Assembly (NCBI GenBank): GCA_016196295.1
Contig: JACPYA010000022.1
Location: forward strand, 1 to 33,864
Reading direction: 5' to 3'
Length of the DNA: 33,864 bases
Source: Candidatus Peregrinibacteria bacterium
GTDB lineage: Bacteria > Patescibacteriota > Gracilibacteria > Peribacterales > Peribacteraceae
Positions 18,651 through 22,790 of the stretch are shown here, in pieces. The translations under genes were made by a program, and so were the position numbers. The notes beneath the pieces were generated by a model. It was given only the letters and a program-made list of their open reading frames with translations. It searched no databases and had not been told where the DNA came from. Numbering within the stretch: the stretch's first letter is position 1; every line of letters starts with the position of its first letter.

Positions 18651-18899
18651 ATGTTCAAGAAGAAATCTCCCCATGTTGGCGCGTGCATGGCACTCCATGT
18701 CGTGGTTTCAGTTCTCCTCTTCGTCGCGGCCGTCGCGGCGATCCTCGGCGTCTACAAGGCGCACGTGCTCAGCACCGGACTCGCGTTCGGTACCACGAGC
18801 GGGTCGCTGGCGCTCGTCGCTCTCGCCATCGTCCTCCATACGTGGATGAAGCAGACGATCGCGTGCGTCACGAAGTGCGAGGCATGCGGCATTAAATAA
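18651..18899 (+). CDS. Small two-TM membrane protein
   Basis: MFKKKSPHVGACMALHVVVSVLLFVAAVAAILGVYKAH...; ends TAA at the left edge of a TIR element. Confidence 0.55.
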   Translation: MFKKKSPHVGACMALHVVVSVLLFVAAVAAILGVYKAHVLSTGLAFGTTSGSLALVALAIVLHTWMKQTIACVTKCEACGIK

Positions 18900-19073
18900 T
18901 ACGGCTACGCGATGAAAATACAGGCATGTTCTTTCTCCACGACTTATATATCGGCGTAGCGATACTTGTCCGGCGAAGTCCCGTCCCGCACATGCGGGAG
19001 GACGAAGCCGGATCGCTACGCCGCTATTGTGATGATCAAGTACGATCTTCACCGTTGCATTCGCGAAGCCGTA
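18900..19073. mobile_element. MITE-like TIR element, copy 1
   Basis: Ends TACGGCTACGCGA.../...TCGCGAAGCCGTA (one mismatch); flanked by TAA (18897-18899) and TAA (19074-19076); internal ~80-bp palindromic core 18945-19026. Confidence 0.75.
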
Positions 19074-19095
19074 TAAGGAACGATCATTCGAAGGG

Positions 19096-19125
19096 CCGGA
19101 CTCGCAGGAGCTCCGGTCTTTTTTT
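19096..19125 (+). terminator. Rho-independent terminator
   Basis: CCGGA...TCCGG stem followed by a T run. Confidence 0.65.
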
Positions 19126-20390
19126 CAACCGCGCTTTTTCCGGCGCAACCACGTCCAGAGTTTGCTGTATCCCACTCCCGCGAGCACCGCATAGCAGAAG
19201 AACCATCCCATGTGATAGCGCGGTACCGCTTGGATGGCTGCCGAGAGAGCGGTGGTGTAGAGAATGATGGCGATGAAGAGGAGGTACTCGCGTTTCCAGA
19301 CCGACCGGAGAGACGTTATGCAGCCGATCAAGAGCAACATCCATACGGCGGCTTCGAGCAGGTTATACAGGAGGCCCCACCCGTTCACGAATGGAAAATG
19401 CAACTCCAGCGCATAGAACAGGGACTGCCAGAGGTAATTTGGCAGGTGTTGGAGGATCGTTGCCTTGCTTTCCCGAAGAATCCGCTCCTCCACCGCAGGA
19501 CCGCCATCCGCACTGTGGATGTCTACATCGCAGTACGGCGACGCTTGGGTCCGGACGCGCGAGATGTATTCCACCCAGAGGCACAGCAGAGGATCCTGAA
19601 GGCGAAATGTTTTTGCCTGGTTCGCACGGCGAAGCAGCGTCGTGGCCGTTCGGTTGGACCCGATAATCGTGAGCTCGCCTGTGTACAGACTGTTCCGATA
19701 CGCCCAGAGCGAGACGGCCATGACGGGCAGCAGGATCACGGGGATCAGCATCCGGCGCGGGATCAGACGAGTTGCCAGTATCACGACAACGAGGACTGCC
19801 GGGAGGAAGAGGTAGGGGATGAACGTGAGGATGAGGCCAGAGAGCAGTAGCCCCAGTACGATCGATTTCCACCATGTCGGGCGCGCATGCATGGAGAGCA
19901 TCAGTCCTGCGAAGAAGAGACCGAGGGTCAGCGTGATGCTTTCGCGGTACGCGCTGAAAAGGATGTGAAAGATGGAGGGCATGAGCAGGAGGAAGCCCGT
20001 CGTAACGACGGACGCTCCGCGCGGAGCAGCTTGCCGGAGTTCTCGAATGAAGAACAGAGTCGCGAGCACGTGCAGGAGCATCTGCACGACGAAGATCGCG
20101 AGGCGGTTCTCCATCCCGAAGGCGCGGTAGATGATACTCAGGAAAAAACTCTGGCCCGGTTCGCGCTCCATGGTAGCCGTCACGCCATCGATCGAGTAGA
20201 AATTCTCCTGCGCGAGGTGGATGGCCGCGGCGTTATAATAGGATGCGTCGTCGCCAAAGGTCTCGCTCATGGGGATGGCCAGGCGACTGCCGAGGAGTGC
20301 CGCCCAGATCACGACAAAGGCGCCGCAAAGAACCATCAGCCATCGTTGCTCAAGAGGAGTGAAGGGACGGAGGGAGTTCCAATGCTTCAT
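19125..20390 (-). CDS. GT-C fold / ArnT-PMT-like membrane glycosyltransferase
   Basis: Many TM helices; N-terminal FGDDASYYNAAAIHLAQENFYS and REPGQSFFLSIIYRAFG typical of GT39/GT83-like proteins. Confidence 0.65.
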   Translation of the reverse strand: MKHWNSLRPFTPLEQRWLMVLCGAFVVIWAALLGSRLAIPMSETFGDDASYYNAAAIHLAQENFYSIDGVTATMEREPGQSFFLSIIYRAFGMENRLAIFVVQMLLHVLATLFFIRELRQAAPRGASVVTTGFLLLMPSIFHILFSAYRESITLTLGLFFAGLMLSMHARPTWWKSIVLGLLLSGLILTFIPYLFLPAVLVVVILATRLIPRRMLIPVILLPVMAVSLWAYRNSLYTGELTIIGSNRTATTLLRRANQAKTFRLQDPLLCLWVEYISRVRTQASPYCDVDIHSADGGPAVEERILRESKATILQHLPNYLWQSLFYALELHFPFVNGWGLLYNLLEAAVWMLLLIGCITSLRSVWKREYLLFIAIILYTTALSAAIQAVPRYHMGWFFCYAVLAGVGYSKLWTWLRRKKRG

Positions 20391-20446
20391 ACGGTTGATT
20401 GATAAATGGGGGGGGATCCTGAATACTTCGCTCACTTTAGCACTCT

Positions 20447-21376
20447 ATGAACATTTTCATTACCGGAGGTGCGGGTTTCATCGGTTCACACCTCACGCGT
20501 GCGCTCGTGAAGGGCGGCCATGCGGTGACGGTGCTCACGCGGAAGGAGTCCGATCTTTCTCGGATCGCGGACATCCAGAAGAAGGTCACGTTGGTCGTCT
20601 GCGACATCGCAGATCGCGAGGCTTTGGTGAAGATCGTCGAGCACGCAAAACCGAAGGGCATTTTCCACCTCGCGGCCTCCAACATTCAGGCGGGCAAGAC
20701 GGATGCCGTGGAGCAGCTGATGAGAAGCAACGTCCACGGGACGCAGAATCTGCTCGATGCGACGAACGATCTTCCCTACAAATTTTTCATGCAGACCGGG
20801 AGCTACTTGGAGTACGGCAAGCGATCGGACATCATCAAGGAGACGGACCGTGCAGAGCCTATGGAGATCTATGCGAAGACGAAGCTGGAAGCGACCCTTG
20901 CGACGCAGGCCCACGGCCGAACGCACAAGAAACCCACGGTTGTTTTCCGCATCTTCTCCCCGTACGGACCGAACATGCAGCAGGGCAGGCTCGTGCGCGA
21001 AGTGATTACGCGCGCATTGCGGGGGGATCCCATACGCCTCACGAAGCCGGAGATCGCCCGCGACTTCATCGAAGTCGGTGATATCGTGGCGCTCCTCTTG
21101 GCCGCAATGGAGAAAGCAAAAGATGTTGGCGGGGAAATCTTCAACCTTGGCAGTGGCAAGAGCACCTCGCTCGGTTCGTTCGTCGATCTCGTCCTCACAA
21201 AGACGGGCTCGAAGAGCGCTGTCGAGTGGGATGCCTTCCCTCCCGTGTTGTATGATACCGCGCACAGTCAGGCGGATATGCAAAAGACATTCTCGCATTT
21301 TGCTTGGCGACCCAAGACATCCCTGGAAGCAGGAGTGACGCGGATGATCGATTGGATTTCTTCTCTCCCCTCATGA
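20447..21376 (+). CDS. NAD-dependent nucleotide-sugar epimerase/dehydratase (extended SDR)
   Basis: ITGGAGFIGSHLTRALVKGGH Rossmann motif and YAKTK active-site motif. Confidence 0.9.
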   Translation: MNIFITGGAGFIGSHLTRALVKGGHAVTVLTRKESDLSRIADIQKKVTLVVCDIADREALVKIVEHAKPKGIFHLAASNIQAGKTDAVEQLMRSNVHGTQNLLDATNDLPYKFFMQTGSYLEYGKRSDIIKETDRAEPMEIYAKTKLEATLATQAHGRTHKKPTVVFRIFSPYGPNMQQGRLVREVITRALRGDPIRLTKPEIARDFIEVGDIVALLLAAMEKAKDVGGEIFNLGSGKSTSLGSFVDLVLTKTGSKSAVEWDAFPPVLYDTAHSQADMQKTFSHFAWRPKTSLEAGVTRMIDWISSLPS

Positions 21377-21555
21377 TACGGCTACGCGACACTGGCAGTT
21401 CCGTGGGTTGTAGTGGAACATTCGAGATAGCGGCGAAGCGATCCGGCTTCGTCCTCCCGCATGTGCGGGACGGGACTTCGCCGGACAGGTATCGCTACGC
21501 CGATATATGTATATTGAGAGCGAATAATTGTTACCTCTTTTTTTACGAAGCCGTA
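21377..21555. mobile_element. MITE-like TIR element, copy 2 (core inverted)
   Basis: Ends TACGGCTACG.../...CGAAGCCGTA; flanked by TGA (21374-21376) and TGA (21556-21558). Core 21427-21508 is nearly identical to the reverse complement of the copy 1 core. Confidence 0.75.
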
Positions 21556-22790
21556 TGACTCCCAAGAAAAATGCACTGCGAGTCGCGTATGCAGAGACCA
21601 TCTACGGCAAAGAAGAAGTGAAGGCCGTGATGGACGTGCTGAAAAATCCGCACCACATCGTCGCGGGACCGCAGGTGAAGGAATTTGAGAAGAAAGTCGC
21701 CGCCCTCTTCGGCAAGAAGCACGGCGTGATGGTGAACTCCGGCTCGTCTGCGAACTTGATCGGCCTCAGCGTGCTCGATCTCCCCAAGGGATCGGAGGTG
21801 ATCACCCCTGCGCTGACCTTCTCGACGACGCTCGCGCCTATCCTCCAGACAGGGCTGACACCGATATTTGTCGATGTGGAGCTTGGCACGTATCTCGTGA
21901 ACCCAAAGACCGTCGAGTCGCTCATCACCTCTCGCACGAGCGCACTCATGATCCCGTCGCTCCTCGGAAACATTCCCGACTTGAAGGCGCTGCGGCAGTT
22001 GGCAGACAAACATTCTCTGCGGCTCTTCGAAGATTCCTGTGACACGCTCGGCTCCCGCTTCGACGGAAAGCCGACCGGAACATTTTCAGATGTCAGCACC
22101 ACGAGTTTCTACGCCTCGCATATCATCACGGCGGCCGGCGGGGGAGGGATGGCGTGCTTCAATGATCCCGTGCTCGCGGAACGCGCGCTCGTGATGAGCT
22201 ACTGGGGAAGGCGATCGACCCTCTTCGGCGCGTACGAGAAATCGGAGGAGATCCAGAAGCGTTTCGCGGGGTTGCTGCAAGGAGAAGCCTACGATGCGAA
22301 GTTCATCTTCAGTGAAGTGGGCTACAACTTCCAGCCGACGGAGCTGATGGGAGCGTTCGGCCTTGCTCAATTGAAACGATTAAAGAACGTTGCCGCCAGA
22401 CGTAAGAAAAATTTCAAAGCGCTCCTCGCGTTTTTCAAGAACTATGAAGATGTGTTTGTTCTGCCGAAGGCTCATCCGGATGCCGATCCAAATTGGCTGG
22501 CTTTCCCGTTGATGCTTAAGGAGAGTGCACCGTTCGATCGCCTCGCACTGGCGCGTTACCTGGAAGAACGAAACATCCAGACGCGCCCCATCTTCACGGG
22601 CAACGTCCTCCGCCAACCGGCCTTTGCGTATCTGGGGAAAGACCGCGTCGCGCGCTTCCCGGCAACGGATACCATCATGCGGCGCGGACTGCTCATCGGC
22701 TGTCACCATGGCCTGACGGACCGGCATCTGCAGTACCTGCAGGACACCTTCGCGGAATTTTTGGGCAAGCGGGAAGTTACGAAGACATGA
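21555..22790 (+). CDS. DegT/DnrJ/EryC1-fold PLP protein, RfbH/ColD-like sugar 3-dehydrase
   Basis: Start refined to MTPKKNALRV. SFYASHIITAAGGGG has His at the usual Schiff-base Lys position (codon 22119-22121, residue 189), plus LLGNIPDL, EDSCDTLGSRFDGKPTGTFSD and DPNWLAFPL as in RfbH/ColD. Confidence 0.85.
   Translation: MTPKKNALRVAYAETIYGKEEVKAVMDVLKNPHHIVAGPQVKEFEKKVAALFGKKHGVMVNSGSSANLIGLSVLDLPKGSEVITPALTFSTTLAPILQTGLTPIFVDVELGTYLVNPKTVESLITSRTSALMIPSLLGNIPDLKALRQLADKHSLRLFEDSCDTLGSRFDGKPTGTFSDVSTTSFYASHIITAAGGGGMACFNDPVLAERALVMSYWGRRSTLFGAYEKSEEIQKRFAGLLQGEAYDAKFIFSEVGYNFQPTELMGAFGLAQLKRLKNVAARRKKNFKALLAFFKNYEDVFVLPKAHPDADPNWLAFPLMLKESAPFDRLALARYLEERNIQTRPIFTGNVLRQPAFAYLGKDRVARFPATDTIMRRGLLIGCHHGLTDRHLQYLQDTFAEFLGKREVTKT

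Follow-up and report, generated by a model that had tools for sequence, protein, structure and literature searches.

Palindromic, gene-less elements with a three-base TGA-type duplication occur in excess at stop codons of Peribacteria-type genomes

How does a short inserted element come to lie precisely on the stop codon of a gene, twice within one contig, with the neighbouring genes kept? This question is raised by contig JACPYA010000022.1 of a Candidatus Peregrinibacteria bacterium (Peribacterales; Peribacteraceae; assembly GCA_016196295.1), of which we analysed positions 1 to 33,864, hereafter called the window. A sequence-only reading had described two copies of an element with terminal inverted repeats (TIR) at 18900–19073 and 21377–21555, each within identical trinucleotides, TAA/TAA around copy 1 and TGA/TGA around copy 2, and both the positions and the flanks proved right. 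The two copies are non-autonomous palindromic elements of 174 bp (copy 1) and 179 bp (copy 2), which open with TACGGCTACGCGA and close with CGAAGCCGTA. We assign them, with a probability of about 0.7, to a family of non-autonomous DNA transposons, namely palindromic miniature inverted-repeat transposable elements (MITEs), of Peribacteria-type genomes of the candidate phyla radiation (CPR), characterised by a TGA duplication and an excess at stop codons.

The flanks of further copies show what is duplicated. From a curated set of 52 copies, from which some with unclear ends (e.g. L121 and L124) were excluded, 48 carry matching triplets on both sides, so that the proposed TIR element with a recurring target duplication is well founded. 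The triplets are TGA/TCA in 38 cases, TAA/TTA in six, TGG in two and CAA and CTT in one each, 44 of the 48 being of the TNA type (TGA/TCA/TAA/TTA). Since the variant triplets are also equal on both sides, they represent the signature of a staggered cut. A duplication of 4 bp (ATAA, ATGA), which had been considered as an option, can be ruled out: over the 48 copies exactly three bases are duplicated, the sequence beyond the triplet shows essentially no conservation (at most 0.15 bit per position) and the apparent fourth base is the terminal A of the element itself. Among the 48 matched duplications TAG/CTA is never found, and TAG makes up 20% of the stops in the genome sample. Furthermore, 11 of the 36 classified TGA/TCA copies are intergenic, some of them within divergent promoter regions. 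The non-use of TAG and the use of intergenic TGA show that it is not the stop codon that is recognised but the DNA triplet TGA (TCA on the other strand, and TNA more loosely). The TNA triplets used correspond to TAA, TGA and the complements of these two stop codons; any TNA insertion therefore resembles a stop on one strand, and whether the triplet ends a real gene has to be tested.

For this comparison genes were called by our own script from codon usage, with 432 kb of the host genome as training sequence; the script was also applied to the other genomes, with starts being inferred. In the 432-kb sample 10,653 of about 13,400 TGA/TCA sites are genic, and the gene-sparing ones consist of 145 stops, 15 ATGA overlaps, 113 start-only and 2,501 intergenic sites. 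The 17 TGA/TCA insertions of the host are distributed over six stops, four ATGA overlaps, two start-only and five intergenic sites, which places 10 of 17 on gene stops compared with 5.8% of the permissible sites (P = 5e-9), an about tenfold excess that persists with half (P = 2e-6) or a quarter (P = 2e-4) of the intergenic background. ATGA overlaps alone were hit four times out of 17, with 0.5% expected (P = 2e-6). In the pooled genomes 21 of 36 TGA/TCA copies are located at called stops. Stop placement exceeds what TGA preference and avoidance of gene interiors would give together. The specificity for stop codons suggested from the first two copies consequently holds for placement, which is far above chance, and not for recognition, which is directed to the triplet.

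In the window the element is placed as follows.

18651..18899, + strand: small open reading frame (ORF) called by codon usage, 82 aa, membrane-like; its stop codon TAA doubles as the left duplication of copy 1
18897..18899, no strand: left target duplication TAA of copy 1 (from sequence)
18900..19073, no strand: element copy 1, 174 bp, long form
18900..18912, + strand: left TIR TACGGCTACGCGA of copy 1
18948..19027, no strand: central palindrome of copy 1 (arms 18948–18963 and 19012–19027) with an extra hairpin in its middle
19061..19073, - strand: right TIR of copy 1
19074..19076, no strand: right target duplication TAA of copy 1
20447..21376, + strand: NAD-dependent epimerase gene (PF01370, E 2.7e-45); its stop codon TGA doubles as the left duplication of copy 2
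21374..21376, no strand: left target duplication TGA of copy 2, the stop codon of the epimerase gene
21377..21555, no strand: element copy 2, a long form of 179 bp whose core runs opposite to that of copy 1
21427..21508, - strand: core of copy 2, which matches the copy 1 core in reverse complement at 98% identity
21555..22790, + strand: DegT/DnrJ/EryC1 aminotransferase gene with its ATG at 21555 (PF01041, E 3e-87)
21556..21558, no strand: right target duplication TGA of copy 2, which with A21555 gives the ATGA of the next gene's start

That the left flank is the stop codon of the upstream gene is firm for copy 2. For copy 1 it is less certain: the ORF at 18651–18899 is called by codon usage, but an earlier, less well trained model made no call there, and it has no match in Pfam or NCBIfam. 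On its right side copy 2 shows a feature absent from the sequence-only reading. The terminal A of the element and the right TGA form the ATGA start of the aminotransferase gene, the ATG of which consists of the last element base and the TG of the duplication. The empty site of copy 2 would accordingly have been an ATGA stop/start overlap between the epimerase and DegT genes.

Similar junctions are filled elsewhere, some of them inside essential operons: pyrB/pyrC, an HTTM-like locus (in the host, G000, and in G008), atpF/atpH (G020) and rplN/rplX (G006), as well as a gene pair in G045 that reads like an antitoxin/toxin operon. Gene names were obtained from reading the proteins, except for the window pair and PyrB, which were assigned by Pfam; HTTM-like is our own label for a protein whose sole Pfam match is a C-terminal DCC1-like domain. 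An element-free ATGA is present at the HTTM-like junction in G013, G006, G014 and G001, at pyrB/pyrC in G006 and G013 and at atpF/atpH in G013, G012 and G003. These three loci, compared by gene order and protein ends and not by near-identical DNA, support the inferred empty site, and when the flanks of the filled sites in G000 and G020 are joined, the ATGA arrangement of the element-free relatives results.

From these data a simple insertion model may be proposed. A transposase would recognise the ends TACGGCTNCGCGA and make cuts staggered by 3 bp at TGA (weakly TNA), which would then be duplicated, as suggested by the paired triplets and by the orthologous sites that lack the element. An insertion on a stop codon would leave the upstream gene unchanged, and at an ATGA overlap the terminal A and the duplicated TGA would rebuild the downstream start so that both reading frames survive, as can be seen at the junctions themselves. 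The target choice described as gene-sparing is correct insofar as the neighbouring genes are kept, and the choice may lie either with the machinery or with selection.

The elements range from 87 to 179 bp and contain no transposase gene. Each half consists of a TIR (13 bp), an arm of 39–42 bp and CGGCGNAGCG. In the compact form of about 125 bp (125–134 bp) two halves are joined directly, and the long form of 158–179 bp, found in the host and in MM_PC_MetaG.mb.158, carries a further hairpin in its centre. The basic unit thus appears to be an approximately 125-bp foldback with two inverted halves of about 62 bp around a central palindrome. Common to both window copies are the 13-bp ends TACGGCTNCGCGA and the central palindrome based on CGGCGNAGCG, and their 82-bp centres are 98% complementary, showing that the core orientation is opposite. 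The pattern TACGGCTWCG has 15 matches with at most one mismatch in the window compared to 2.9 expected. Less decayed copies form an imperfect inverted repeat of up to 30 bp with the ends TACGGCTNCGCGA. When all copies are taken together, left and right arms show no significant symmetry (P = 0.36), and the foldback origin therefore rests on the less decayed copies. Two copies at different sites of G022 are 88% identical and share their arms, which indicates recent mobility; the copies of G045 resemble each other in arm sequence, and the pooled arms show weak positional signals, with an A-rich part close to the TIR and a T-rich middle. An origin of the variable arms as captured spacers, for which their constant length and unrelated appearance in the host might speak, was rejected in view of these shared arms and pooled signals. 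From the sequences we read the family as an old foldback, whose ends and centre seem to be conserved and whose arms seem to drift.

The hairpin inside the long form (GTCCCGTCCCGCACATGCGGGAGGAC type; 18964–19011 and 21443–21490) is also found by itself at many host sites and therefore seems to be a distinct repeat nested within the element. In the TIR and core heptamers GCGNAGC/GCTNCGC the N is the sole freely varying base, with all four bases being seen, and d(GCGNAGC) forms unusually stable single-strand mini-hairpins. A search of Rfam gave no match for the window at gathering thresholds.

About 25 copies are present in the host genome, a metagenome-assembled genome (MAG) of 1.13 Mb in 84 contigs that is 85.7% complete, with the window as contig C64. 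About a dozen further Peribacteria-type genomes carry the family; all genomes are drafts, and some G and L labels refer to the same genomes. Half-element profiles matched 47 halves in G000, 17 in G008, nine in G006, six in G022 and fewer in others, most members of the bacterial family having none. Scanning 85,462 species genomes by pattern, which gives no kinship information on the carriers, revealed half-elements in the Peribacteria- or Peregrinibacteria-labelled genomes JAGVCI01 (WC_7), VMEW01 (Greene0416_19), SICN01 (Baikal-deep-G206), MFXW01 (RIFCSPHIGHO2_02_FULL_53_20), CALRCM01 (MaH-04nov19-177), JAUSKD01 and JAUSFD01, and also in JAHISE01 (Patescibacteria MM_PC_MetaG.mb.158). Those matches outside this group that were inspected lack the element structure, as expected of chance. 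A phage origin was dismissed as well, the single viral-contig match being GC-rich, without element structure and judged to be chance.

The patchy presence and the differing sites argue for mobility. Only one junction is common to two genomes, the HTTM-like locus on contig C63 of G000 (L152) and contig C119 of G008 (L127). Here the same orthologous ATGA is filled in two genera by copies with dissimilar arms, which may have decayed from a common ancestral insertion or stem from two separate hits. Another copy lies within a FemAB-like gene (L078:522-653, JAHISE010000134.1; same site in L271), where the 132-bp insertion and its 3-bp duplication add up to 45 codons and the reading frame is open throughout. 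At L048 (G000:C79:50712-50737) the contig stops 26 bp into a copy with TTA before the TIR, and this could be an unassembled longer, autonomous copy.

Several points speak against our interpretation. Transposases of PF01609 (DDE_Tnp_1) and PF13586 (DDE_Tnp_1_2) are absent from all carriers searched and rve matches have no TIR nearby. Neither an autonomous partner with the same ends nor a transposase was found in the incomplete draft carriers; a partner could reside in the 14% that the MAG lacks, have been lost or belong to another family. In addition, the empty sites are orthologous junctions in family-level relatives and not sister-strain alleles, and the gene calls rest on our own script. Finally, once the gap is given, insertions favour the stop only mildly (18 compared with 13.9 expected, P = 0.008), because overlaps offer one possible site only; the signal comes mainly from the fact that such narrow junctions are hit in the first place.

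The same observations have to be weighed against other explanations. With roughly even odds we attribute the stop excess to the insertion step rather than to later selection. Plain TGA-specific insertion throughout the genome without gene-end targeting, followed by loss of genic and intergenic copies and persistence of those between touching genes, which could be removed by exact excision only, is a serious competitor to which we give somewhat less than an even chance. Selection does act, as no gene-breaking copy was seen in the host although 10,653 sites are genic, and it is purifying selection that keeps gene interiors free of copies. Damaged or partial copies (L011, L031, L052, L059, L140) show erosion, and the mild enrichment within gaps also fits. 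Yet such a scenario needs a more than tenfold faster loss of intergenic copies, whereas the occupied divergent promoter regions show that intergenic insertion is tolerated, and the profile score, a proxy for decay, does not differ between copies at stops and elsewhere (P = 0.75). Purifying selection thus does not readily explain stops over intergenic TGA, simple survivorship of old copies at stops was rejected as these are no more decayed than others, and ATGA overlaps in operons are not obviously harmless. That the machinery itself finds gene boundaries, preferring TGA stops and ATGA overlaps through a translation or transcription cue and with element ends that fit an ATGA target, is a possibility that we consider less likely than not. 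A use for the host, in which the element is a transcribed RNA structure between co-transcribed genes that affects mRNA stability or, by bringing stop and start near each other via the TIR stem, preserves translational coupling, appears unlikely. Of 52 minimum-energy folds predicted, 42 contain the stem (mean z = -4.6), and copies are located in essential operons, but transposon inverted repeats fold by nature, the arms are hardly conserved, and the patchy presence among relatives together with the element-free orthologous junctions shows that the element is dispensable.

Even less probable is a repetitive extragenic palindromic (REP)-like or TIR repeat moved on single-stranded DNA by a Y1 transposase, either a REP-associated tyrosine transposase (RAYT) or a TIRYT. 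TIR-flanked RAYT relatives have been described (PMC3733652), and the host has nine Y1 matches, the most in its family, including a RAYT-like gene near a copy on contig C76. However, RAYTs inspected in G000, G008 and G022 are mostly flanked by their own CCGCGGG-type repeats, with one having an element copy nearby, and for this reason RAYT was rejected as the mover. G006 carries copies and has no Y1 match. Moreover, the variant triplets TAA, TTA, TGG, CAA and CTT match on both sides, and Y1 enzymes are not known to produce staggered-cut duplications. The host Y1 matches are spread over contigs C37, C19, C66, C57 and C76 (L165, L179, L252–L254, L153), several being RAYTs with such repeats.

The transposon family proposed here shares single traits with several known systems. 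The IS1031 and ISL2 groups of the IS5 family and eukaryotic PIF/Harbinger elements make 3-bp TNA-type target duplications like those found here, whereas the corresponding PF01609/PF13586 transposases are missing from the carriers searched. Rickettsia palindromic elements are likewise palindromic and leave genes intact, and the in-frame copy in L078 resembles them, but they typically lie inside ORFs and the present family lies at gene boundaries. Tn7 (at attTn7, beside glmS) and group IIC introns (behind terminators) also insert harmlessly downstream of genes; they use long, specific sites or terminators, in contrast to a triplet alone and duplication of the stop codon itself. REPs and bacterial interspersed mosaic elements (BIMEs) with RAYT, and TIRtrons (PMC3733652), are palindromic and near gene ends. 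REPs, however, are 20–40 bp long and supply a stop from their own end without target duplication, whereas here a host triplet is duplicated, TGA and never TAG, variant triplets included. Closest in kind are bacterial MITEs (MITEAba12, PMC6382973; reviewed in PMC10969869), being short, gene-less and dispersed, with TIRs and target duplication and presumably moved in trans. MITEAba12 shows 9-bp duplications, near-constant length and highly conserved copies (PMC6382973), in contrast to the 3-bp duplication, strong TGA preference, strongly diverged arms and stop-codon placement described here. The text of the 2024 review does not mention stop codons (PMC10969869), and we found neither MITEs of Peribacteria or Patescibacteria nor stop-codon-targeting MITEs in open PMC papers.

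Transposons with a safe target are few and have dedicated targeting parts, and a 125-bp element that persists in highly compact genomes because it lands on stops and rebuilds ATGA would reach the same end by minimal means. The finding also raises the question of how the essential gene pairs pyrB/pyrC, atpF/atpH and rplN/rplX tolerate 125–180 bp of structured DNA between a formerly overlapping stop and start. Little has been described of mobile elements in CPR bacteria, and this one could act as a marker of change in their genomes; if it does find gene boundaries, it would represent a short transposon with the stop codon itself as its safe target.

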